From assembly GCA_029560585.1 (NCBI GenBank), contig JAKQKQ010000201.1, forward strand, positions 62,001 through 126,000: a DNA stretch of 64,000 bases. The letters run 5' to 3'. The notes beneath the pieces were generated by a model. The model did no database searches. It saw only the letters and a program-made list of their open reading frames with translations, and was not told the origin of the DNA. Numbering within the stretch: position 1 is the first letter of the stretch; every line of letters begins with the position of its first letter. This DNA is from Verrucomicrobiota bacterium. Its GTDB lineage: Bacteria; Verrucomicrobiota; Verrucomicrobiia; JADLBR01. A program made the translations under genes and the position numbers. This document shows, one piece after another, positions 8,437 through 62,801 of the stretch.

Positions 8437-8486
8437 GTAGGAGCCTGCTTGCAGGCGATTGGAATCGCGCGCAAGCGCGCTCCTAC
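8437..8486. repeat. REPIN-like element, copy 1 (50 bp)
   Basis: The element begins GTAGGAGC, ends GCTCCTAC, and consists of two inverted REP-like halves (each with GCTTGC or GCAAGC and an inner GCGATT or AATCGC). A second element of exactly 50 bp with the same plan lies at 20719-20768. The head GTAGGAGC with inner CGAT resembles REP families of Pseudomonas, which are mobilised by RAYT (Y1 transposase) proteins. No RAYT gene is seen in this window. Confidence 0.7.
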
Positions 8487-9544: not shown

Positions 9545-10273
9545 TCACGCGCGCCATGCGCCCAACTCGATCATCGCCGCCTCGGCCAACTTCGCCCACC
9601 CGCGATTCGCCGCGGGATTTGCCGGGCTCGGATGCGGGATTCGCCCCACGTCCAAGTCGAGCCCCGTGGCCTCCCGCACGGCCAGCGCGCGGGCCTGTGC
9701 AAACGCGCCCACGCCAATCACCCACTCGGCCCCCACCGCGCGCACCAGTTGCGCCAGATGGCGGTCGCAGGCTTCCCACAGAGGCGCGGTCTCGGACGCG
9801 CGAAGTTTGTCGGGCGTCAGGTTCTTGCCCGATGCCTCCATGAAAACCAGCGGACAATAGTTCGCAACGAAATGGTCCGCGAAAAATGCTTCCGCCGCAC
9901 CAAACCTCGAGCGGAATAATCCCCATAGCCGTGCGCCACTTACCTCGCTCCGGCGACACGCAAACCCCTCGATCGGCCGAGCCGGATGCTCCGCGGAGGG
10001 TCTGCCCACGGGCTCGCACACCCCCACCCAATCCCGCACCGCCGCCACCTCGCCAAACGGCACGCCCGTCTGCGCCATCCCCCACGGACCGGGATTCATG
10101 CCCAGGAAAATGATCCGCTTCGGTGATGCTCCCCAACGCCGCAAATACGCCTCGTGTGGCCGCCACGCATAATCCAACGGATTGTACACGCACGCGACCG
10201 GCTGGCCGAACCGGAGGCCGCCCACCTCTTTTCGGAGCCGCGCCGCCACCGCCACAAGCCCACCCGCATCCAT
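9545..10273 (-). CDS. SMUG1-type uracil-DNA glycosylase
   Basis: The 242-residue protein carries both SMUG1 signatures: the water-activating loop NPGPWGMAQTGVPFGE and the DNA-intercalating loop HPSPANPAANRGW. Such enzymes excise uracil and oxidised pyrimidines from DNA in base excision repair. The ATG at 10271-10273 is preferred over an upstream in-frame start at 10312. It lies seven bases after the stop of the hydrogenase small-subunit gene, and the TAG stop plus following bases (TAGGGA) give it a Shine-Dalgarno. It therefore seems to be the last gene of the hydrogenase operon, an odd pairing. SMUG1 in bacteria is patchy, so transfer is possible, but base composition matches its neighbours. 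Confidence 0.9.
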   Translation of the reverse strand: MDAGGLVAVAARLRKEVGGLRFGQPVACVYNPLDYAWRPHEAYLRRWGASPKRIIFLGMNPGPWGMAQTGVPFGEVAAVRDWVGVCEPVGRPSAEHPARPIEGFACRRSEVSGARLWGLFRSRFGAAEAFFADHFVANYCPLVFMEASGKNLTPDKLRASETAPLWEACDRHLAQLVRAVGAEWVIGVGAFAQARALAVREATGLDLDVGRIPHPSPANPAANRGWAKLAEAAMIELGAWRA

Positions 10274-10280
10274 GCGATCC

Positions 10281-10817
10281 CTAAACCTGATCAAGCTTCT
10301 CGTAAACCACAAGCTCCCCCTCGTTCTTCAACTGGCTGGGGTGATATCGCGGGATCGTCAGCTCGGTCTGTTTGAACTGAACGGGCGCGGTCTTCTTGTC
10401 CACCAGCCCAACGGCCACCGCAACACCGTAGATGATGGCCTCCGGCCTCGGCGGACACCCGGGAATGTAGTAGTTGACGGGAACGATCTTCTCAACTGGC
10501 CCGATCACGCTGTAGGAATCGTGCCAGATCCCACCCCCGCACGCGCAGGAGCCAATCGCAAATACCAGCTTGGGCGCCGGCATCGCGTCGTAGGCCCGCC
10601 GCAGGGCCTTGGCCGTGCTCCGCATCGCCGGCCCCTGGCACAGCATGACATCCGCGTGCCGAGGCGATCCCACCAGTTTGATGCCAAAGCGCTCCACGTC
10701 GTAGTACGGCGTGAGGACGTTCAGCACCTCGATGTCGCAACCGTTGCACCCCCCGCTGTTCGCGTGATAGACCCACAGCGAGCGGCCAAACATCTTCTTG
10801 CACAGCTCTCTCAGCAT
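10281..10817 (-). CDS. [NiFe] hydrogenase small subunit, NuoB/HycG/EchC-like
   Basis: This 178-residue protein carries the proximal 4Fe-4S cluster of group 4 hydrogenases. The four ligands are visible in SGGCNGCDIEV (two Cys), FAIGSCACGGG and YIPGCPPRPEA. It pairs with the NuoCD-like large subunit encoded at 12285-13961 to carry electrons to the NiFe site. I chose the ATG at 10815-10817, ten bases after the preceding stop and with GAGGTGG in front; the open frame extends to 10922 but that part overlaps the ferredoxin gene. It is the last hydrogenase structural gene of the operon. Similarity to complex I NuoB means the family alone does not prove hydrogenase function; the large-subunit Cys motifs do. 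Confidence 0.92.
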   Translation of the reverse strand: MLRELCKKMFGRSLWVYHANSGGCNGCDIEVLNVLTPYYDVERFGIKLVGSPRHADVMLCQGPAMRSTAKALRRAYDAMPAPKLVFAIGSCACGGGIWHDSYSVIGPVEKIVPVNYYIPGCPPRPEAIIYGVAVAVGLVDKKTAPVQFKQTELTIPRYHPSQLKNEGELVVYEKLDQV

Positions 10818-10827
10818 CGGCGCCACC

Positions 10828-11352
10828 TCAGTCCATCTCAATCTGGATATCGTCCACGGGCTTTTCGCCCTCGAGATAGGCCCGCGAACGAAACACCCAA
10901 CGCTCGTTCTCCGGGTCGTCAAAGCGATAGCCCTTGAGCTTCAGTTGCTCCAGGGCCGACGGTTCCTTGAAACATCGCCCGCAGCGCTGGCAAGTGCTCA
11001 TGAATAACTCCAGTCGCTGCCCCACGTCCCCGATGACGTCGGTGGCATTCTCGTACTCCGTGCTCATGGTGATCGCCTTCTCAGGGCACACTTCCGCGCA
11101 GCGCCCACAATAGGTGCACCGGCGCCCCAGATACTTCAGGATCCGGATCTCCTGGCAGGGGTCGTACACCAGGATCTCCCGCGCCGGGCAGTTATTCGCG
11201 CACCCGGCACATCCGATGCACTTCGCCGCATCAAATATGGGCCGACCACGAAAATTGGGAGGCACCTCGCGCGGACGTGCCGGGTACGGCAGCGTCACGC
11301 GACCCGCCCTCAGGCAGACGATCGCCTCTTTCAGCTTGCTCACAAAAGACAT
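10828..11352 (-). CDS. Hydrogenase 4Fe-4S ferredoxin subunit, NuoI/HycF/HyfH-like
   Basis: This 174-residue polyferredoxin has two classic clusters, CIGCAGCANNCPA and CTYCGRCAEVCPE, which wire electrons toward the small subunit in the peripheral arm. A third motif, CQRCGRC, lies in the C-terminal part, as in HycF/HyfH of formate hydrogenlyases. The N-terminal amphipathic stretch probably docks it on the membrane subunits. It lies nine bases downstream of the NuoH-like gene and ten before the small-subunit gene, so it is clearly part of the operon. In FHL complexes the upstream electron source is HycB; no such gene is seen here, and the beta/gamma pair encoded at 16452-18414 may take that place. 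Confidence 0.9.
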   Translation of the reverse strand: MSFVSKLKEAIVCLRAGRVTLPYPARPREVPPNFRGRPIFDAAKCIGCAGCANNCPAREILVYDPCQEIRILKYLGRRCTYCGRCAEVCPEKAITMSTEYENATDVIGDVGQRLELFMSTCQRCGRCFKEPSALEQLKLKGYRFDDPENERWVFRSRAYLEGEKPVDDIQIEMD

Positions 11353-11361
11353 CGTTTCACC

Positions 11362-12288
11362 TCACATGCCAAGGCTCGCAAGGACCAGCGCGACCATCGA
11401 CACCCCAAGCAGGCACCCGAAATACCGGATCGCCTGATCGATCCGGTACCGCGCGTGCGTCGCCGCCACCAGCGTCACCAGCAAAACCAACCCCAGCACC
11501 TTCCCCCAGGTCAACAGCGCGCCCAGCGGAAACACCAGCGATGAGCCCCACGGCAGAAACAGGGCCACGAACAGCGCGCTGTAGGCCACCAGTTTCACCA
11601 TCCGCGCATACTTGAACATCGCCAGCTTCGGCCCCGAGTACTCCATCAGCGGCCCCTCCATGATCTCCGTCTCAGCCTCGGAGATATCGAACGGCACCCG
11701 CGCAACGAACGCCTGGAACGACAGGGCCACGACCCCAAGCATGATCAAACCAGAAACGGGCACCCCGCCCGCCGCGTACACGGACCCGTCGAGCACGGTC
11801 TCCAGCCGGAATGACCCCGTGTGGATTGCACCGATGAGAATCGCCACGGCAAACAGGGGCTCCAGCGCGACCATCGACATCATCTCGCGGCTCATCCCAA
11901 CCAGAGAGAATGTGCTGCCCGCCGCCAGGCCGCCCAGCACCGTGCAGACACCGCACAACGTCATCAGGTAGATGAGGAGGATGGCATCACCGGCGCCTTG
12001 CAGCGGCACCCCGACGCCCATCGGCACCATGCACGCCACGGCCACCGCCGCCGCAAATGACAGCCTTGCCGCAAACTGTTGCATCCCCGGCACGTCCCCA
12101 GACTCGATGTCCTCCTTGCCAAGCAACTTCAACAGATCGAAATAGGGTTGCCAGATCGGCGGGCCTTGGCGCGACTGGATGCGGGCCGTCACCTTCCGCA
12201 CCACGCCCTCCAGGAACGGCGCCACCAACAGGACGGCGCCAACGTTGAATATCCCAGCCAAGACCAACCTGCCCCAGTCCATGGTCAT
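11362..12288 (-). CDS. Hydrogenase membrane subunit, NuoH/HycD/EchB-like
   Basis: This is an integral membrane protein of about 308 residues with eight or so helices. Motifs typical of the NuoH/HycD family are visible: QSRQGPPIWQPYFDLLKLLGK near the N-terminus (quinone/arm-facing loop), and ISEAETEIMEGPLMEYSG, the acidic loop proposed to transmit redox energy to the ion path. It anchors the NiFe module to the antiporter-like subunit. The ATG at 12286-12288 overlaps the stop of the large-subunit gene (ATGA), so the two are translationally coupled. A longer frame up to 12384 lies inside the upstream gene and is rejected. Confidence 0.9.
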   Translation of the reverse strand: MTMDWGRLVLAGIFNVGAVLLVAPFLEGVVRKVTARIQSRQGPPIWQPYFDLLKLLGKEDIESGDVPGMQQFAARLSFAAAVAVACMVPMGVGVPLQGAGDAILLIYLMTLCGVCTVLGGLAAGSTFSLVGMSREMMSMVALEPLFAVAILIGAIHTGSFRLETVLDGSVYAAGGVPVSGLIMLGVVALSFQAFVARVPFDISEAETEIMEGPLMEYSGPKLAMFKYARMVKLVAYSALFVALFLPWGSSLVFPLGALLTWGKVLGLVLLVTLVAATHARYRIDQAIRYFGCLLGVSMVALVLASLGM

Positions 12289-13961
12289 CCCCTCCCCCCC
12301 AGCGCGAGGCGCCGCAGATCCTCGCCCGACCAGATTCGCCTGTGGCCCGACCTCACGTCGATTGTCTCCATCCGGTCCGTGCACGAAAAACAGGGGTCGA
12401 TGCTGCCCAGCGCGATCGTCATGTCTGCGAGTTGCTGGTCCTTGATCATCGACGGAATACCCTGGAGGTTCTGATAGGTCGGCGCGCGCACCCGCCAGCG
12501 CCGCGGGCGGTTGTTCTCGCCCGTCACGACGAAATGATGCGCCTCGCCCCGAGGCGCCTCCACCGACGAGAGCCCCATGCGACCCACCGGCAACTCGTCC
12601 TCGATCTGCGACTGGATCGGCCCGCCCGGCATCTTCTCAAGGCACTGGCGGATGATTCGGATCGACTCGAAAACCTCGTTCATCCGCACGACGAGGCGCG
12701 ACCAGACGTCGCCATCGCGCGCCACGATCACGTCGAAATCCACCCTGTCGTAGGCCGCGTACGGGTGGTCGCGACGGCAGTCGATGTCCGCGCCCGATGC
12801 CCGCGCCACCGGCCCAACCAGGCCGACATCCTTGACCAGTTGTGCGCTCGCCACGCCCACGCCACGCGTGCGCTTTTGGATGTTGCGGTCGCTGCTGACC
12901 GCATCCACCACACTCCTCCACTCCTCCTCCAGCTTGTCGAGAACCCCCCGCAGCTCGGCCGCCATCTCGGATCCGATGTCCCAGCGCACGCCCCCCACGA
13001 CACAGAGCCCATACGTCTTTCGATTGCCCGTGATCTTTTCCGCCACCCACATGATCGGCTCGCGGATGCGGAAACTTTGCATGAATAGCGTGTCGAAGCC
13101 GACGATGTGGCACGCCAGCCCGACCCAGAGCAGATGGCTGTGCAATCGCTCCACCTCCAGCATGATCGTGCGAACGAATTCGGCGCGCTCGGGCACCCGC
13201 AGCGCCGCGGCGTTCTCGACCGCCTGCACGTAGGTGACGCTATGGACGCACCCGCAGATCCCGCAAATGCGCTCGGCCATCATCGGGATGTCATTGTAGG
13301 AAAGGACCGACTCGGCGAGTTTCTCGATCCCGCGATGCGCCATGAACCCGCGATACTCGCACCCGCGCACCACCTCCCCGTCCACGTACAGCCGAAAATG
13401 CGCGGGCTCGTCCAGCGTCGGATGAAATGGCCCGAAGGGCACCACCACGCAGCCCTCGGGCGGATCGTCGAACTTGAACTCCAGTTCACCATCAAAGTTC
13501 GCTGGGACGTGATCCCACGAAACATCTTTTCGCAACGGGTGCACGCCCTCCGGCCACCCGTCCGGAAGGACCAGCCTCTTGGGATACCTGTGCCCGATGG
13601 GCTCGATGCCCACGAGATCGCGAAATTCCCGCTCCGCCCAGCTGGCCGCCGGAACGACGTCCGAAATGCTGTCCAAGGCGGGCCTCTCGGCCGGCAGATA
13701 TGACAACACCCCGCACAGCAATTTCGCCCGGTCGAACGCAAAGTTGTGCGCCACGAGATACTCGCCAGAGAACGGCCGGTCATCCGCCCCGATGCTGATC
13801 ACATACCGCGCGCCCATGTCGCGAAAGATATGCCCGCACACGGCCTTGATCGCCCTGGGATCGACCACCACGAACATGCGCCCCCCGCCGGGCAGATCCG
13901 CCCGCCGGATCGACCCGCCGAATTTCTCCTTCAGCTCACCCAGTTTTGTGCGTGCCTCCAT
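12285..13961 (-). CDS. [NiFe] hydrogenase large subunit with fused NuoC-like domain (HycE/HyfG type, group 4)
   Basis: This 558-residue protein fuses a NuoC-like domain (about residues 1-150) to a NuoD/large-subunit domain. Both NiFe ligand pairs are intact: RICGICGCVHS in the N-terminal part of the large-subunit domain and DPCFSCTDRM near the C-terminus. Real NuoD proteins have lost these cysteines, so this is a hydrogenase and not complex I. After the second pair some 30 residues follow; in HycE such a tail is cut off by the HycI protease after metal insertion, and a protease gene lies in this operon. The likely reaction is H2 evolution from protons coupled to ion pumping, or the reverse. 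The start is ATG 13959-13961 with GAGG seven bases ahead. Confidence 0.95.
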   Translation of the reverse strand: MEARTKLGELKEKFGGSIRRADLPGGGRMFVVVDPRAIKAVCGHIFRDMGARYVISIGADDRPFSGEYLVAHNFAFDRAKLLCGVLSYLPAERPALDSISDVVPAASWAEREFRDLVGIEPIGHRYPKRLVLPDGWPEGVHPLRKDVSWDHVPANFDGELEFKFDDPPEGCVVVPFGPFHPTLDEPAHFRLYVDGEVVRGCEYRGFMAHRGIEKLAESVLSYNDIPMMAERICGICGCVHSVTYVQAVENAAALRVPERAEFVRTIMLEVERLHSHLLWVGLACHIVGFDTLFMQSFRIREPIMWVAEKITGNRKTYGLCVVGGVRWDIGSEMAAELRGVLDKLEEEWRSVVDAVSSDRNIQKRTRGVGVASAQLVKDVGLVGPVARASGADIDCRRDHPYAAYDRVDFDVIVARDGDVWSRLVVRMNEVFESIRIIRQCLEKMPGGPIQSQIEDELPVGRMGLSSVEAPRGEAHHFVVTGENNRPRRWRVRAPTYQNLQGIPSMIKDQQLADMTIALGSIDPCFSCTDRMETIDVRSGHRRIWSGEDLRRLALGGRG

Positions 13962-13969
13962 GCCTGCCC

Positions 13970-15931
13970 TCAATCGTCTCCGCGCCCGCCCGCCGCCAGT
14001 TCGCCACTAGGTCTCGCGCGCGATGTTGTGGCACCGTCGCGTGCAGCGCCGGACGCTGTACCGCCCATCCACCGGAAATACCGCATCAATTCTCCATAGT
14101 ACCCTTTTGCCGCATAACGGTGACAGTCTGCCTCCGCCACATAACCGCACAGCCATGGCTCGGCCTCTCGGGCCCTCGCAGCCCCCAACCTCGACACGAG
14201 GCGCGCGACCAAGAACCCCAGGCCCAAAACACACGCGAGCACCACCGGCACCAAGACCGCACGCCCTCCAAATACCGCGACCCCAAGTGCGGCCGCGCCC
14301 TCCACGGGCCATGCCTCGGCCAGCGCTGCCCCCGACCCTCCTGGGCTGCTGCCCAGCGCGGCACCGACCAGCTTGAGCCCCAAACCCGGAAGCACGCCCA
14401 ATACGATGCACGCAACGGCAAGCAGCCATTGCGGCAGACCCATCATCCAGCCCACCTCCATCGAGCGCCGACCCGTGGCCCTCTGCTCCACCCATGCGCT
14501 GGTCCGAGAGAGGAAGCTCGCACCAAAGAACTTGACGAACGCCGCAAGCGTTAGCGCGCTGGTAAGAATGGCGATCGCCGCGCACAGGGGAACATACCTC
14601 GCCCCCGACGCGCCCTGGATGGCCCCAACGCACAGTCCCCACTTGCTCGCAAAACCATTTGACAGAGGAACGCCCGATACCGACAGGGCGCCCACGAGTG
14701 CCGTCACGCCCGTCAGCGGCATCAGCCGCATCAATCCCCCCAGCCTGTCGAGACTCTGCGTGCCCGTGGCCCAGACCATCGACCCCGAATTGAGAAACAG
14801 CAGGCTCTTGAAGAGGCCGTGATTGATGGTGTGGAAGAGCGCCCCCCCAAGACCCATCGCCCCCAACGCCACGAGCGCAGGATCCGCCGATGGCAGCAAC
14901 GAGAGCGCAACGCCAAGCCCAAACAGGATGTACCCGACCTGACCAATGCTCGAAAATGCCAACAGCCGTTTCGTCTGGTCTTGTTGAAGGGCGGCCACCG
15001 TCCCCGTGAACAGCGTGATCGTGCCCAAGATCACGATGGTCAAACCCCACGCTGACATCGGGCATCCGGCACGAGAACCCTCTGGCACCAACCACAAGAA
15101 ACAGCGCATCATCCCATAAACACCCGTCTTGATCATCACGCCCGACAGCAGCGCGCTGACGGGCGAGGGCGCCGCCGGATGCGCGTCCGGCAGCCAAATC
15201 TGACCGAATGGCCACATGCCCGCCTTGATGCCAAAGGCCGCCAGGAACAGCGCGAGCGCCACCACCACCACAAACGGCCGCGTCTGCAATAGCACCGATA
15301 CGTTCCCGGCCAGCGAATCGAACTCATACCTGCCGGCGTGCCCCCCGGCACCCGCCCCAGTCGGTGCCAGCAGCGCTGCCCCGATCATCGCCAGCGCGCA
15401 CGCAACCTGCATCATGAGGATGTACTTGTTCGCGGCACGGATGTTCGCAGCCTCCCGGTGCTCGAATCGAATCAGCAGATAGCTCGGCACGGTCATCATC
15501 TGCCAGAAGACCATGAACACCCACATCGTGTCCGTGACCGCCACGATCCCATACATCCCAGCCACGAACATCAGGAAATTAGGGTAATAGCGCGCAACGC
15601 CGTAGCCCGGGTAGTGGTCCATGTACCGGATCGAAAAAAGCGCGGCGATCGGCGCGATCATCGCGATGATCGCCACGAAAATCGCGCTCAATCCGTCCAC
15701 GTAAAATCTCACCGCCAGACCCGGATGCCCGAGGATCAGCCACGCCTGCCCACTCGGCTCGCCCGAGCCCAGCACCCCGGCCACCGCAACAAGGGCCAGC
15801 GCGCTCGAAATGCCCGTGACCGCAAACGCCACCCACCCGGCGGCGGCGCGACTCCGAGCCACAGGCAGCGTCAGCGCCGCACCCGCAAGGCAGGTGAATA
15901 TCGCAAACATGTGTGCCTGGCCCGAAGTCAT
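13970..15931 (-). CDS. Antiporter-like hydrogenase membrane subunit (HyfB/HycC, NuoL/M family)
   Basis: About 653 residues with some fourteen or more transmembrane helices of the proton-conducting membrane transporter family. The signature region around FGIKAGMWPFGQIWLPDAHP, with the expected Lys and His, is present, as is a C-terminal segment EPWLCGY similar to HyfB/HycC. It is the only antiporter-like subunit in the operon, as in Ech and FHL-1. The complex should therefore have a single main pumping module. The ATG at 15929-15931 overlaps the stop of the protease gene (ATGA). A frame extension to 16099 is inside that gene and is rejected. It lies nine bases ahead of the large-subunit start. 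Confidence 0.92.
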   Translation of the reverse strand: MTSGQAHMFAIFTCLAGAALTLPVARSRAAAGWVAFAVTGISSALALVAVAGVLGSGEPSGQAWLILGHPGLAVRFYVDGLSAIFVAIIAMIAPIAALFSIRYMDHYPGYGVARYYPNFLMFVAGMYGIVAVTDTMWVFMVFWQMMTVPSYLLIRFEHREAANIRAANKYILMMQVACALAMIGAALLAPTGAGAGGHAGRYEFDSLAGNVSVLLQTRPFVVVVALALFLAAFGIKAGMWPFGQIWLPDAHPAAPSPVSALLSGVMIKTGVYGMMRCFLWLVPEGSRAGCPMSAWGLTIVILGTITLFTGTVAALQQDQTKRLLAFSSIGQVGYILFGLGVALSLLPSADPALVALGAMGLGGALFHTINHGLFKSLLFLNSGSMVWATGTQSLDRLGGLMRLMPLTGVTALVGALSVSGVPLSNGFASKWGLCVGAIQGASGARYVPLCAAIAILTSALTLAAFVKFFGASFLSRTSAWVEQRATGRRSMEVGWMMGLPQWLLAVACIVLGVLPGLGLKLVGAALGSSPGGSGAALAEAWPVEGAAALGVAVFGGRAVLVPVVLACVLGLGFLVARLVSRLGAARAREAEPWLCGYVAEADCHRYAAKGYYGELMRYFRWMGGTASGAARDGATTSRARPSGELAAGGRGDD

Positions 15932-16452
15932 ACGCGGACCGGATCGGTTTGTGTTCGGGCCAGCGCCGCGACGAACAATTTCACCAACATGTCGACGGTC
16001 TGCTGCACGGCCGACGTCAGGGACGCTTCCCCCACAAGGGAATTCGGTTGGACGCCGAGCAGCCAGACCCGCGTCTTCCCATCGGCCTCGATCGCGCAAG
16101 CCAGCGTGCCGAGGCTCACCCTGTGCGTCGAAATCTGGGGAAAACGCTCCGCCATCTGCATGGAGTCCAACAACACCACGGATCCCGGCGCGCCACCAAA
16201 ATCAACCGCGTCCAGAAACAGCACCGTATCGTAACCGCCATCCGCCAGATGCGGGAGAAAACGTTCCGGCGCTGGGCCGGCGGCGATGATCTCGGGCGCG
16301 TCTCCACCCCCATCGCCGATTCCCGCGGCCGCCCGCAGCGACTCCGCGAGCCTCACTCCCAGCGCGTCGTCGCCAGAATCTGTATTCCCCACACCCACCA
16401 GACAGGACCGCCCCCGGACGCACGCTTCGATCTCCTCGCGCAGGTCACTCAT
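15928..16452 (-). CDS. Hydrogenase maturation protease (HycI/HybD family)
   Basis: About 174 residues. The N-terminal motif GVGNTDSGDDALGVRLAESL matches the GxGN...DDxxG signature of peptidase family M52, whose acidic residues bind Ni in the unprocessed hydrogenase. The enzyme removes the C-terminal peptide of the large subunit after NiFe(CN)2CO insertion. The partner is almost surely the large subunit two genes downstream. The ATG (16450-16452) shares one base with the TGA of the gamma-subunit gene. A specific protease within the structural operon is usual for FHL-type enzymes. General Hyp maturation genes are not in this window. Confidence 0.9.
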   Translation of the reverse strand: MSDLREEIEACVRGRSCLVGVGNTDSGDDALGVRLAESLRAAAGIGDGGGDAPEIIAAGPAPERFLPHLADGGYDTVLFLDAVDFGGAPGSVVLLDSMQMAERFPQISTHRVSLGTLACAIEADGKTRVWLLGVQPNSLVGEASLTSAVQQTVDMLVKLFVAALARTQTDPVRV

Positions 16453-17300
16453 CAGATGTCCTCCCCGAGCTTCTTGATCTGGCGATATGTGAACACCGGG
16501 CCGTCCACGCACACGTAGGCCACCCCAATGCAGCAATGCCCGCACTTTCCGACGCCGCATTTCATGTAGCGTTCTAGCGTCGAGACGATGTTCTCCTCCG
16601 CGATCCCCATCCCAGACAGATCTCGGATGACAAAACGGAACATCACGGGCGGCCCGCACACAAAAGCGACCGTGTTCTCCACCGGCACCCTCACGCCCTC
16701 TTTCTTGAAGAGGCTGCCCACTACGCCCACGTTCCCGGTCCACCCATCTTCGCCGCGATCAACGGTCAGGTGACACTCCACGCCGGCCGCCTCCTCCCAC
16801 TCGCGCAGGTTGTCCCGGTACATCAGATCCTTGGGCGTCCGCGCCCCCAGGAATATCTGGATGCGCCCGTAGCTCTCCCGGTGCGCCAGTGCATACATGA
16901 TGCACGAGCGGAGCGGGATGAGCCCGATGCCACCCGCCACAAAAACCAGATTCTTCCCGGAGAAGGCCTCCATCGGAAAGCCGTTGCCGTATGGCCCGCG
17001 CACTCCGAACTTCTCGCCCGGCCTTAGGTCATGCAGCGCCGCAGTGCAACTGCCCACCCGCCGCACCGTGAAAAACGTCTTCCCCTCGGTCGGGCTCGGG
17101 GGCAACGACAACGGCATCTCTCCGGCCCCAAAGAGCGACACCTGCACAAACTGGCCGGGCCTGAAACGCATGAAGGTTTCCTGCTCCCGCGCGTCCTCGA
17201 AATGCCAGTGGAATGTCTTCACGTCCTGGATCTCGTCCACGACGCGATCCAGCACGGCGATCTTCGGAAGGTAGACGTTGTCAGTCACCGGCGGATCCAT
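16452..17300 (-). CDS. FAD/NAD(P)-binding gamma subunit with 2Fe-2S cluster (sulfhydrogenase HydG / AsrB type)
   Basis: This 282-residue protein belongs to the ferredoxin-NADP reductase superfamily. FAD contacts are suggested by FRPGQFVQVS and the VRGPYGNGFP region, the NAD(P) site by FVAGGIGLIPLRS and the FVCGPPVM motif. A C-terminal 2Fe-2S cluster is seen as CGVGKCGHCC plus a later Cys, as in dihydroorotate dehydrogenase electron-transfer subunits. In soluble sulfhydrogenases this subunit passes electrons between NAD(P)H and the beta subunit. Here it sits in a group 4 hydrogenase operon and overlaps the beta gene by 20 bases. It may give the complex an NAD(P)H entry or exit. Whether NADH or NADPH is used cannot be told. 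Confidence 0.9.
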   Translation of the reverse strand: MDPPVTDNVYLPKIAVLDRVVDEIQDVKTFHWHFEDAREQETFMRFRPGQFVQVSLFGAGEMPLSLPPSPTEGKTFFTVRRVGSCTAALHDLRPGEKFGVRGPYGNGFPMEAFSGKNLVFVAGGIGLIPLRSCIMYALAHRESYGRIQIFLGARTPKDLMYRDNLREWEEAAGVECHLTVDRGEDGWTGNVGVVGSLFKKEGVRVPVENTVAFVCGPPVMFRFVIRDLSGMGIAEENIVSTLERYMKCGVGKCGHCCIGVAYVCVDGPVFTYRQIKKLGEDI

Positions 17301-18414
17301 GCTGTCCTTTCGGTTCCGCCGCCCCCGGCCTCTCGGGCGCGATCTTGTCGTCCTGTGCCGTCGCGCGGCGAATCATCTCCACGACGCTCGGCATGCCGAT
17401 GTCACCATGGCAAACCTCCGTGCAGCGACCACAGCCTACGCATGCCATCGACAGCTCGCGCTGGATGAAATAGTGGGCCAGTTTTCTGAAGAAACGACGG
17501 TTTCGGCGATCATGCACCGCCCTGCGCGGGTTGTGTCCCCCGGCCATCCGCGTGAACCCCCCCAGCGCACACGCATCCCACAGGCGCACCCGCTCCCACT
17601 CGCCAGCGCCCACCTCACGGTCCCTGACCGTGAAACAGGTGCAGGCGGGACAGACGTACGTGCACCCGCCGCATTCCAGGCAGCGGACGCCAATCTCCTC
17701 CCACGTCTTATCGAGAATCTTCCCCTGCGAGACATATCGCACGGTCGCCGAAAACCAGCTTGTCGTGGCCTCCTTGAATTGCTTGCGCACCTCGCCGAGA
17801 ATCCTGCGGCGCCGGGCGATTTGCTCCGCCGCCCCCCGCTTGAAAATCGGATCCGCGAACAGCGCCGCACCCGCGGGCGTGCCGGCCACCGCCATGAACT
17901 CGCCCCCCCCAAGATCCATCAGCTGCAGATCAAAGTGGTCGCGCGCCGCCGGACCGGTGTCGGCGCACACGCAGAAGCAGGACTCATCGATGTCCGAGGT
18001 CGGGTCGGTGCACACGACGTTGACCAAAAACAGGCCCCTGCGGTGCCGCTCGTAGTAGACGTCGCGGAAATCCCGGCCCAAGAAAAACCTGTCGAGATGC
18101 CAGATGCCCGCCACGTCGCACGAGCGGATGCCAAAGATCGCCCGCCGAGTCCCATCATACGTCGGCTCGACCCGCGGGTCCCCGCCCCCTCCCCGAATCT
18201 TCATGATCCGCTCGATCTGGGGAAACACGTACCGCTTCGGGGGATGATAGGGATTTGCGATGTGGATCTGGATCTGGTCGCGGTTCTCGTCCGTCACGAT
18301 GTCAAAGACACTATCCCGCCCCCGTCCCCGGAACGGCGCGAGAACTTCGTGGTCTTTCCGCAGAAGATCCACGATCTTCAGAACGTCGTCGCGATGAATG
18401 ATGCGGGCGCGCAT
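17281..18414 (-). CDS. 4Fe-4S beta subunit (sulfhydrogenase HydB / AsrA type)
   Basis: This protein of about 377 residues matches the beta subunit that pairs with the FAD gamma subunit in sulfhydrogenases and anaerobic sulfite reductases. Two 4Fe-4S clusters are seen in the C-terminal half: CLECGGCTYVCPACTC and CVGCGRCTEVCHGDIG. The N-terminal half holds the conserved RAIFGIRSCDVAGIWHLDRFF segment of the family. Electrons would run from the flavin subunit through these clusters. The ATG at 18412-18414 follows the stop of the molybdopterin gene by two bases, so the two are likely translated together. The frame is open to 18576, but that overlaps the upstream gene. Confidence 0.9.
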   Translation of the reverse strand: MRARIIHRDDVLKIVDLLRKDHEVLAPFRGRGRDSVFDIVTDENRDQIQIHIANPYHPPKRYVFPQIERIMKIRGGGGDPRVEPTYDGTRRAIFGIRSCDVAGIWHLDRFFLGRDFRDVYYERHRRGLFLVNVVCTDPTSDIDESCFCVCADTGPAARDHFDLQLMDLGGGEFMAVAGTPAGAALFADPIFKRGAAEQIARRRRILGEVRKQFKEATTSWFSATVRYVSQGKILDKTWEEIGVRCLECGGCTYVCPACTCFTVRDREVGAGEWERVRLWDACALGGFTRMAGGHNPRRAVHDRRNRRFFRKLAHYFIQRELSMACVGCGRCTEVCHGDIGMPSVVEMIRRATAQDDKIAPERPGAAEPKGQHGSAGD

Positions 18415-18416
18415 GT

Positions 18417-20453
18417 TCAGTCCTTGGTGATGCTCACAAACACCGGCTTCCCCTGGTGCCCTGCCTCGAGCGGGGTCTCCCCCATGATCGCCTTCTCCAC
18501 CTCCCGCACGAAGAATGGCACAAAGACCGTTCCGTTCCTCACCTCGCCGCTCACCCGCGCCGTGGTCAGGGCGCAACCCCGCGCCGCGCAGAGCCTGATC
18601 CGGTCGCCGTCGCGGATGCCGGCGCGGGCCGCGTCGTCGGTGTTCATCTCGACAAAACCGTCCGGATAATCCAGCAGCAGGATGCGCAGCTCACGCTTGA
18701 GGGTTTCGCTGTGTTTCACCAGCACGTTCTGGTGCCAGTAATAGAGCGAGTGCCCAAAGATGAGCGCAAAGGGGTACTCCTGGGGCGGATTGACCTGCGT
18801 CGTCGGCCTGGGCACCGGCACGAACTTGAACGGTTTGCCTGAGATGCCGTCCTCGAAAAGAAACCGGGTGCCCAGGGGCCTGTCTTTCGTGCACGGCCAC
18901 TGGCGGCCGTATTCACACGAGAGGTTCTCGTAATTCGCGCCGCCGTAGTTGGGCACCGCCTGCCCGATCTCCGCCATGACATCGGCAGATGTCGCATAAC
19001 TCCAGCCGGCGCCCAGCGCGCGCGCGACGTCCTCGATCTGCCGCCACGCCGGCCGCAGCCCCGGCGGTGGATCAAGCACCTGTCCCGCAATTTGAATTCG
19101 CCGATCCGTGCTGGTGAACGTGACCTGCTCTTCGCCAAAAGCCACCACCGGAAGGATCACGTGGGCGTATCGGGCCGTCGACGTCATGAACAGGTGCTGC
19201 AAAACCACCAGATCCAATTCCCGGAGCGTCGCCGCGGCATCGGTGAATGCGGCCGTCGTCACCGGATCGTAGCGCGTCAGCCAGACGGCGCGCACCGATC
19301 CCCCACCCCGGTCCGTCAAAACCTCCCGCGCCCCCAGCCCCTGCGCTGTGGGCAGGGCGCCCGCGCCCCACAGCGACTCGAGCCGCCCCCGTGCCACGGG
19401 CTCATCCACCGCAAAATAGCCGGGCAGCCGATCGGGCAACATGCCCATGTCGCAGGCGCCCTGCAGATTGTTGTGCTCGGTCAGCGCGAAAAGCCCCGAG
19501 TTCACCTTGCCGATATTGCCGGTCAGCAGCGCCAGGTTCACCATCGCGCGGATGCTGTTCATCCCCCGCGCCTCAATGCCAGTCGAGTACAGGAACGCGG
19601 CCGAACCAGCCCGCGCCAACGTCAGCGCCGCACCCTCGATGTGTTCCGGCGGCACGCCGCAGGTGTCGGCGGCCTGGAGCAAGTCATAGTCCTGCACCGC
19701 CGCCACCAACCCCTCGTAGTCCCGGCAGTGCCCGCGGACGAAGGCCAGGTCCAGCAGGCCGTGATCGACGATCACCTTGGCCATCGCCCCGTAAAGCGTG
19801 ACCCGCGTTCCGGGACGAACCTGGAGCATGAAATCCGCCTGCTCCGCCACCCGGTGCCGGCGCGCGTCCACGACAATCAACTTCGCGCCACCCAGCTTGG
19901 CGCGGATCACGCGGCCAGCGATCGTCGGCATCTGCAACGCCAGATCCACGCCGTCCACGAGAATGACCTCGCTCCGCGACAACTCGCCGATGGAGTTGGT
20001 CGTGGCCGGCACGCCCAGCATGTCCAGCAGGACATTGACGCTGTTGTTGCAGTAAACGCCCGTCCCGTGATCCACGTTGTTGGTGCCAATGACCGCGCGA
20101 GCCAGTTTCTGCAGGAGGTAGCTCTCCTCATTCGAGCAGCGGGGCGAGCTGAAAAACGCCAGCGCATCCGGCCCGTGGCGCCGCCGTATTTCCTCGAGCC
20201 TCCGCACGATGAAGTCGATGGCCTCGTCCCAGCCGACCTCCTGAAAACGCCCGTCCTTCCTGAGCAAAGGCACCTTCAGTCGCTCGGGGGAACTCGCCAC
20301 CTCATGCACGTTCCACCCGCGGATGCAGATCCTGCCCTGGTTCGTGGGGTGTGACATGCTGGGGCAGACGCCCACAATCCGGTTGTCAGCGGTCTCCAGA
20401 TACAGACCGCAACCCACGCCGCAGAATGTGCAGGTTGTCAGGCTATGCGCCAT
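18417..20453 (-). CDS. Formate dehydrogenase-like molybdopterin oxidoreductase
   Basis: This 678-residue protein has the bis-MGD enzyme layout: an N-terminal 4Fe-4S site (C8, C11, C15, C43), three molybdopterin core regions, and a C-terminal dinucleotide-binding barrel (MNTDDAARAGIRDGDRIRL). Length and position fit the FdhF partner of a formate hydrogenlyase. Two key sites differ. The Lys that normally follows the last cluster Cys (CxK) is Arg45. The Mo-ligand region reads VDHGTGVYCNNSV, with Tyr134 where Cys or Sec is expected and Cys135 one place later, where His is usual. No in-frame TGA is present, so it is not a selenoprotein. It may still be a formate dehydrogenase, or another molybdenum/tungsten enzyme. 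It is the first gene of the operon; no clear Shine-Dalgarno was seen. Confidence 0.85.
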   Translation of the reverse strand: MAHSLTTCTFCGVGCGLYLETADNRIVGVCPSMSHPTNQGRICIRGWNVHEVASSPERLKVPLLRKDGRFQEVGWDEAIDFIVRRLEEIRRRHGPDALAFFSSPRCSNEESYLLQKLARAVIGTNNVDHGTGVYCNNSVNVLLDMLGVPATTNSIGELSRSEVILVDGVDLALQMPTIAGRVIRAKLGGAKLIVVDARRHRVAEQADFMLQVRPGTRVTLYGAMAKVIVDHGLLDLAFVRGHCRDYEGLVAAVQDYDLLQAADTCGVPPEHIEGAALTLARAGSAAFLYSTGIEARGMNSIRAMVNLALLTGNIGKVNSGLFALTEHNNLQGACDMGMLPDRLPGYFAVDEPVARGRLESLWGAGALPTAQGLGAREVLTDRGGGSVRAVWLTRYDPVTTAAFTDAAATLRELDLVVLQHLFMTSTARYAHVILPVVAFGEEQVTFTSTDRRIQIAGQVLDPPPGLRPAWRQIEDVARALGAGWSYATSADVMAEIGQAVPNYGGANYENLSCEYGRQWPCTKDRPLGTRFLFEDGISGKPFKFVPVPRPTTQVNPPQEYPFALIFGHSLYYWHQNVLVKHSETLKRELRILLLDYPDGFVEMNTDDAARAGIRDGDRIRLCAARGCALTTARVSGEVRNGTVFVPFFVREVEKAIMGETPLEAGHQGKPVFVSITKD

Positions 20454-20718: not shown

Positions 20719-20768
20719 GTAGCAGCGCGCTTGCGGGCGATTCGAATCGCCCGCAAGCAGGTTCCTAC
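20719..20768. repeat. REPIN-like element, copy 2 (50 bp)
   Basis: It starts GTAGCAGC, ends GGTTCCTAC, and is centred on GGGCGATTCGAATCGCCC. It has the same length and plan as the copy at 8437-8486. Its flank carries CACCGGGGCAGAAAAT, found inverted near copy 1. The left half has one base changed from the GTAGGAGC head. Confidence 0.7.
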
Positions 20769-61877: not shown

Positions 61878-62801
61878 ATGAACCAGCTCGCAGCCAGAGG
61901 AATCCGTTTTGCCGTCACCGCCATATGGGGCGGGGCCGCCGCGACCTGCCTGCTCCTCTCGGGATGCGGCGGCGGAGGCACCGATGAGGCCGACACCGTC
62001 TGCATCCAGAACAAGGGCTCCGACACGATGGTCAACGTCGCCCAGGCCTGGGCCGAGGAATACAGGGCGGTCGCCCCCGAAGTGGACGTTGAGATATCGG
62101 GGGGCGGATCCGGCGTGGGGATCGCCGCGCTCATCAAGGGCGCCATCGACATCGCAAACGCCAGCCGGAACATGAAGCCCGAAGAAATTGAGCAGGCCAA
62201 GAGGAACACCGGAAAGGAGCCCAGGGAGTTCATCGTGGGGCACGACGCATTGGCCATCTACGTCCACAGGGACAATCCGCTCAACGAGATCTCCATCGAT
62301 CAGTTGGCCGATATCTTCGGCGAGGGCGGAAAAACGACCAAGTGGTCTGAGCTCGGCGTCTCCATCCCCGGCGGACAGGACGAGATCGTCCGCGTAAGCC
62401 GGCAGTCGAGCTCCGGCACCTACGAATTCTTCCGCGAGCACGTGCTCAACAAGGAGGATTTCAAGCTCGGCTCCCGCGACATGAACGGATCCAAGGAGGT
62501 CGTGGAACTGGTCGCGGGCACCCCCGGCGCCATCGGCTATAGCGGCATGGGCTACAATGTGCCCGGCAAAGTCAAGATGCTGAAAGTGGCCACGAGAAAA
62601 GGCGAGCCCGCCGTCGAGCCCAGCGTCGCCAGCGCACTGGATAAGCGCTACCCCGTCGCGCGCTCGCTCTTGCTGTACACCTTGGGGGAACCCTCCGGCG
62701 AGACCAAGGCCTACATCGACTGGATTCTATCGGACGCCGGCCAGAAGGTCGTTGAGGAGAGCGGCTACGTGCCATTGCCGGCAGACATGCGCCACAAGTG
62801 A
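61878..62801 (+). CDS. pstS: Phosphate-binding lipoprotein PstS
   Basis: A 307-residue periplasmic binding protein. The N-terminus has a long leader ending in the lipobox LLLSGC. Phosphate-contact segments are typical: NKGSDTMVNVAQAW, SGGGSGVGIAALIKGAIDIANASR, and VSRQSSSGTYEFFREHV. It delivers phosphate to PstCA. It starts 14 bases after the PhoU-fusion gene, with GAAGGA ahead of the ATG. This placement (phoU first, then pstSCA) differs from the pstSCAB-phoU order of Enterobacteria. Confidence 0.95.
   Translation: MNQLAARGIRFAVTAIWGGAAATCLLLSGCGGGGTDEADTVCIQNKGSDTMVNVAQAWAEEYRAVAPEVDVEISGGGSGVGIAALIKGAIDIANASRNMKPEEIEQAKRNTGKEPREFIVGHDALAIYVHRDNPLNEISIDQLADIFGEGGKTTKWSELGVSIPGGQDEIVRVSRQSSSGTYEFFREHVLNKEDFKLGSRDMNGSKEVVELVAGTPGAIGYSGMGYNVPGKVKMLKVATRKGEPAVEPSVASALDKRYPVARSLLLYTLGEPSGETKAYIDWILSDAGQKVVEESGYVPLPADMRHK

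Follow-up and report, generated by a model that had tools for sequence, protein, structure and literature searches.

Gene content of the operon

The stretch of DNA analysed here, referred to as the window, covers 64,000 nucleotides of a Verrucomicrobiota genome of 7.06 Mb (completeness 95.7%; contig JAKQKQ010000201.1, C254 in our numbering, positions 62,001–126,000). It carries an operon for a group 4 [NiFe] hydrogenase, consisting of nine open reading frames (ORFs) on the minus strand (window positions 10281–20453) which overlap or are spaced by gaps of a few bases. Families were assigned to the nine ORFs by Pfam and NCBIfam profile searches. All ORFs are present and both searches agree with the families named, so the nine-gene hydrogenase operon claimed in an earlier note on this DNA is real.

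The first gene (18417–20453) encodes a MopB subunit of 678 amino acids (aa) resembling formate dehydrogenase (FDH), in which the Cys residues of the N-terminal [4Fe-4S] cluster are intact and the Mo/formate site is replaced. It is followed by HydB (17281–18414), an Fe-S subunit assigned to sulfhydrogenase beta/AsrA, and by HydG (16452–17300), a subunit for FAD, NAD(P)H and [2Fe-2S] assigned to sulfhydrogenase gamma/AsrB. The remaining genes encode a HycI-type hydrogenase maturation protease (15928–16452), matching the C-terminal extension past DPCxxC of the large subunit, a HyfB-like antiporter subunit (13970–15931), the fused NuoCD-type [NiFe] hydrogenase large subunit (12285–13961; RICGICGC ... 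DPCFSC), a NuoH/HyfC-type membrane subunit (11362–12288), a HycF/NuoI-type Fe-S subunit with two [4Fe-4S] motifs and additional Cys residues as in HycF (10828–11352) and a NuoB/HycG-type hydrogenase small subunit (10281–10817). The two CxxC NiFe-ligand motifs together with the NuoB-type small subunit and the NuoH-type membrane subunit place the operon in group 4. The earlier note spoke of nine hydrogenase genes; the genes and families stand, with the correction that HycI is a maturation protease rather than a subunit. Its single antiporter subunit holds for the window, while several relatives carry two antiporter genes. The gene is tandemly duplicated in L066, L067, L070, L072 and L074, where the membrane arm may be longer.

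Neither a HycB-type four-cluster ferredoxin nor the alpha and delta subunits of group 3b sulfhydrogenases were found within the operon using the ORF list and profile searches, in agreement with the earlier note; HydB and HydG are present in place of HycB. The operon also holds no NuoF-, HydB(FeFe)- or NfnL-like bifurcating flavin subunit, the HydG-type protein being the sole flavoprotein.

Loss of the formate site in the FDH-like subunit

Against TIGR01591 the FDH-like subunit scores 563.7 bits, which is under the equivalog cut-off of 666.25. It has Tyr-Cys where FdhF of the hydrogen-dependent CO2 reductase (HDCR) and other FDHs have Cys/Sec-His, and Thr at the position of their Arg. In FDH-H numbering the replacements are U140-H141 to Tyr-Cys, R333 to Thr, K44 to Arg and R581 to His. 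Among the 44 aligned FDH-like subunits of the clade described below, 43 have lost the Mo-ligating Cys/Sec, 43 have lost Arg333 and 40 have lost Lys44, and none of them (0/44) keeps both the ligand and the Arg. The catalytic His is gone in most members, including that of the window. The four Fe-S Cys residues are kept in 44, 44, 44 and 42 of the 44 sequences. Canonical FDH/Nas proteins in the same alignment have C140 in 31/31 and R581 in 33/33 cases. Residues 579, 581, 662 and 679, which probably bind the pterin in FDH-H, are invariant in the canonical set and mostly lost in the FDH-like clade. A selenocysteine codon read as stop was ruled out as an explanation, since the ORFs are unbroken and the ligand codon specifies Tyr, Gly or other residues.

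In a tree calculated with the active-site columns masked, the FDH-like subunits form one side of a single branch (98*), so a single loss of the active site suffices. The AlphaFold model of the subunit (mean predicted local distance difference test score, pLDDT, 89.4) was matched by Foldseek to FDH-H with a template-modelling score of 0.90, and the FDH fold is retained according to the model. Judged by its residues, the subunit is not a formate dehydrogenase. The formate-like chemistry proposed in the earlier note is not supported, because the Mo-ligating Cys/Sec and catalytic Arg are missing from the window protein and through the clade, as is the His in most members.

The genomic background points the same way: the FDH-like gene is the only FDH-family gene of the window genome and FdhD was not found in a search of that genome. 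With a cut-off of 1e-60, no other FDH-family gene turned up in 9 of the 11 class carriers searched, the window genome among them; for these, the idea that another FDH of the cell oxidises formate was rejected. G408, G417 and several Spirochaetota carry more FDH-family genes. FdhD is present in 1/14 carriers of the class vs 12/16 carriers of canonical FDH (Fisher p 0.0002, in a test that ignores relatedness).

The nicotinamide module and the NiFe core

The closest solved relative of HydG is sulfhydrogenase gamma (E 3e-58), and HydB matches sulfhydrogenase beta (E 1e-34). The FAD, NAD(P) and [2Fe-2S] motifs of HydG are conserved in nearly all relatives, and 14 of the 16 Cys residues in HydB are invariant in 51 aligned sequences, the remaining two being nearly so. 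HydB and HydG contain the NAD(P), FAD, [2Fe-2S] and [4Fe-4S] motifs used to recognise group 3b. All cofactor motifs of the flavin NAD(P)H adaptor suggested in the earlier note are intact, and motif inspection does not discriminate NADH from NADPH.

The NiFe ligands are intact in the NuoCD large subunit, which has HycE as its best match in the PDB. The NuoI subunit keeps additional Cys residues at the position where HycF of Escherichia coli holds a metal ion facing FdhF (PMC9474812). In the antiporter, the Lys residues of transmembrane helices 7, 8 and 12 (TM7, TM8, TM12) are kept and the TM5 Glu is replaced by Gln. The TM5/TM7 pair of E. coli HycC has the Glu and lacks the Lys, the reverse of what is seen in the window (PMC9474812). 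In the clusters of Armatimonadota and Acidobacteriota the antiporter has the TM5 Glu and keeps the TM7 Lys.

Conservation across genomes

HydB orthologues with 63–83% identity were found in 13 other genomes of the class, and in the regions compared the order FDH-like-HydB-HydG-HycI-antiporter-NuoCD-NuoH-NuoI-NuoB is constant in all 13; two of these loci (L065 and L072) sit on truncated contigs. Scanning named genomes with the large-subunit alignment gave 80 loci. In 35 of them the FDH-like subunit, HydB, HydG and the group 4 core occur together, covering about nine phyla, with carriers in Verrucomicrobiota, Aminicenantota, Spirochaetota, Pseudomonadota, Acidobacteriota, Gemmatimonadota, KSB1 and Armatimonadota. 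One carrier, Chitinibacter tainanensis DSM 15459 (Pseudomonadota), is cultured. The named relatives of the window cluster are mostly Verrucomicrobia metagenome-assembled genomes (MAGs), subdivision 3 among them. The nine-gene set recurs far beyond chance. The clusters of L089, L091 and L093, labelled Acidobacteriaceae or Planctomycetaceae, nest within the Verrucomicrobiota clade and represent either mislabelled MAGs or recent transfer.

A comparison of neighbourhoods found kinases and regulators adjoining some clusters, and no conserved substrate gene beside them. Directly upstream of the operon in L105 lies a gene (L105:2527-3708) whose product joins a Rex-like NADH/NAD+ redox sensor to a response-regulator receiver domain. 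Though rare, such a sensor beside the cluster fits a nicotinamide role. One loose pattern was used to look for a Rex operator ahead of the FDH-like gene in related loci, and none was found.

Phylogeny of the large subunit and HydG

References for the large-subunit tree were E. coli HycE/HyfG and the loci retrieved in this analysis. In this tree the clusters' large subunits group together as a single clade of 43–44 rows with a support of 91 in the Shimodaira-Hasegawa-like approximate likelihood ratio test (SH-aLRT); the portion containing the window has 99*, and further subclades are starred. A neighbouring clade of 23 rows (99*) holds E. coli HycE/HyfG and archaeal relatives, including the Thermococcus locus L123, which carries a canonical FDH. 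Forcing HycE/HyfG into the larger subclade of the window was rejected by the approximately unbiased (AU) test (p 0.00033).

The HydG tree has the same deep subclades as that of the large subunit, and these do not include the group 3b-type HydG found in the class and in the window genome itself. The match in deep branching argues that HydB and HydG have moved together with the hydrogenase, and together with the constant gene order it rules out HydBG as an unrelated neighbour pair. The distinct large-subunit clade with constant synteny that the earlier note had in mind was therefore recovered: the gene order is kept throughout the class genomes, the large subunit falls outside the E. coli HycE/HyfG clade of formate hydrogenlyase (FHL), and HydG follows the large subunit instead of behaving as an independent pair with HydB elsewhere.

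A separate clade (100*; L146, L149, L150, L154-L159, L161 and L163-L165) of Omnitrophota, Cloacimonadota and Bacteroidales has group 4 hydrogenases with HydBG in which NuoC and NuoD are split, and an FDH gene is usually missing. One member, L157, carries a canonical FDH and has a Rex-like gene nearby. The window genome encodes other NiFe-type genes. C213 (L078) carries a second, Ehr-like group 4 complex with a large subunit lacking the Ni-ligand Cys, C309 (L079) a HydB/HydG pair of sulfhydrogenase type, close to a NiFe gene and separate from the pair in the window, C131 (L080) another group 4 large subunit and C142 (L081) a further NiFe-type gene. HydDB group 4f was rejected as an assignment for the window operon, since the published examples either have no Ni ligands or resemble Ech; the Ehr-like copy on C213 fits that group better.

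Proposed function and mechanism

We consider it likely that the nine genes specify an energy-converting, membrane-bound [NiFe] hydrogenase with NAD(P)H as its partner rather than formate or ferredoxin, in which the FDH-derived subunit acts as a scaffold or Fe-S conduit. Electron exchange between NAD(P)H and H2 is its probable activity. The reading draws on the gene content, the intact NiFe, FAD, NAD(P) and Fe-S motifs, the loss of the formate site and the deep branching common to HydG and the large subunit; from these we infer a physical complex, its electron path and direction and its ion coupling.

In such a complex, electrons would pass from NAD(P)H to FAD and the [2Fe-2S] cluster in HydG, and from there to the [4Fe-4S] clusters of HydB, which would stand in place of HycB. 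HydB could then deliver them to NuoI, possibly through the N-terminal [4Fe-4S] cluster of the FDH-like subunit or past it, and NuoI would pass them via NuoB to the [NiFe] site in NuoCD. NuoH and the one antiporter subunit would couple turnover to ion movement. The net reaction would be NAD(P)H + H+ <-> NAD(P)+ + H2. On thermodynamic grounds it lies near equilibrium, and the ions moving through NuoH and the antiporter would then poise it: an inward flow could drive fermenting cells to release H2 from NAD(P)H, and at high H2 the reaction could run in reverse. The FDH-like subunit would be a former formate dehydrogenase which lost its Mo chemistry and was kept as a scaffold or Fe-S conduit, as an analogue of NuoG. 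We see an even chance that the clusters represent an undescribed [NiFe] subtype of about nine phyla, an NAD(P)H:proton oxidoreductase built on a complex I core with an FDH turned into a dead connector.

Several observations weigh against this picture in whole or in part. The fourth cluster Cys of the FDH-like subunit is lost in L075 and L112, which favours a scaffold over a conduit. Parts of the MopB framework are kept (R110, N114, E115, E450 and others), suggesting that pterin could still bind. Two of the three subclades (Verrucomicrobiota; Aminicenantota/Spirochaetota/Pseudomonadota) have the TM5 Gln in the antiporter; the change from Glu makes ion pumping doubtful, and ion coupling may be weak or altered. 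Of 21 carriers outside the class, 9 do have FdhD, and the Thermococcus FHL control lacks it; this weakens FdhD as a decisive marker and leaves its absence as supporting evidence only. Finally, Rex adjoins only a few related clusters.

Among the alternatives, a MopB subunit that still binds pterin and catalyses a different reaction, using a new Mo/W ligand such as Tyr or a neighbouring Cys/Ser and exchanging electrons beside NAD(P)H, seems unlikely. The retained MopB fold and its conserved framework residues would fit such an enzyme, as would the replaced loop, which is itself conserved in Verrucomicrobiota (HGTGVYCNNS, E-H-N-N-L-Q-G). Yet the loop is wholly different among subclades (YC/YS/YG, GH, GQ, WY, YS, VC), no constraint is seen on the residue that follows the ligand, and K44, T579, R581, N662 and K679, invariant in canonical FDHs, are mostly lost.

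The variant of FHL proposed in the earlier note, linking formate, NAD(P)H and H2, appears highly improbable. Its FDH-like gene comes first in an operon with an FHL-type core, PFL-family genes occur in the window genome, and Thermococcus has an NADP-dependent FDH complex, Fdh3, with a flavin NAD(P) subunit (PMC8965080). However, the Cys/Sec-His-Arg triad that defines FDHs (Cys133-His134-Arg324 in PMC8965080) is absent, and the window genome has neither a second FDH nor FdhD. An electron-bifurcating or confurcating enzyme joining ferredoxin and NAD(P)H with H2, also raised in the earlier note, likewise appears highly improbable, and nothing speaks for it beyond the many Fe-S clusters, the one flavin and the NuoI-type ferredoxin subunit. 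The operon's only flavoprotein belongs to the HydG/FNR type and has a single FAD site; it is closest to sulfhydrogenase gamma, which is described as coupling simply to NADP(H) (HydDB 3b). The bifurcating subunits listed above are missing from the operon, and ion coupling would already provide an energy source.

Relation to known systems

The nicotinamide-linked hydrogenase that we favour shares parts with several known enzymes. Like FHL-1 and FHL-2 of E. coli (HycBCDEFG/Hyf with FdhF, group 4a), it has NuoB, NuoI, NuoH and a fused NuoCD, a HyfB/HycC-type antiporter, HycI and an FdhF-family subunit. It differs in having HydB and HydG for HycB, an FDH subunit without the triad and a large subunit of another clade; on the criteria of FDH chemistry, HycB and membership of the HycE/HyfG clade, the operon as predicted is not a group 4a FHL. 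HydB and HydG are homologous to the beta and gamma subunits of Pyrococcus sulfhydrogenases I and II (group 3b), with the cluster Cys kept, but these enzymes are soluble and have a group 3 large subunit, whereas the window operon has a membrane-type group 4 large subunit and lacks alpha and delta.

Complex I has a nicotinamide-flavin module beside its NuoB/CD/H/I core, and its NuoG subunit (NDUFS1/Nqo3) is likewise FDH-related, has no formate chemistry and keeps the N-terminal [4Fe-4S] cluster (the N7 equivalent). The NAD(P)H module of the window is HydG/HydB rather than NuoEF, and its core has intact NiFe ligands. NuoG has been discussed as FDH-related, with cluster N7 as a relic, in the context of the FHL structure (PMC9474812). 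Fdh3 of Thermococcus onnurineus also combines an FDH-family subunit with Fe-S proteins and a flavin subunit that binds NAD(P), but has an active Cys-His-Arg site, is cytoplasmic and lacks a hydrogenase (PMC8965080).

The nearest published notice that we found in the open-licence literature is the Saganbacteria RX5A group 4 cluster which, according to the available excerpts of its description, contains asrA/asrB (HydB/HydG-like), Mrp-type subunits and an unclassified molybdopterin protein not identifiable as formate dehydrogenase (Matheus Carnevali 2019, PMC6349859). The same excerpts relate its hydrogenase to those of Omnitrophica and Zixibacteria, propose an Mbh-like function and contain no active-site analysis of the molybdopterin protein. 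In our tree the Omnitrophota belong to the separate clade with split NuoC and NuoD, unlike the window.

Clusters like that of the window would be easy to annotate as formate hydrogenlyase, and in Verrucomicrobiota, Aminicenantota, Spirochaetota and others formate-to-H2 metabolism is therefore probably predicted too often. If our interpretation is correct, these organisms would have a membrane hydrogenase that is linked to nicotinamide, has its core in common with complex I and includes a degenerate FDH subunit. It would be an independent, extant parallel to the proposed origin of NuoG in complex I, and the idea of NuoG as a relic of an FDH-type input module could be tested in a living enzyme, one carrier, the C. 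tainanensis strain, being in culture.

Flanking features

An ORF resembling DNA glycosylases of the UDG superfamily (window 9545-10312) runs in the same direction as the operon, its span overlapping the end of NuoB. The operon region is flanked on both sides by a palindromic intergenic repeat (GCGATTCGAATCGC...; window 8455-8480 and 20725-20762), with none expected in shuffles.

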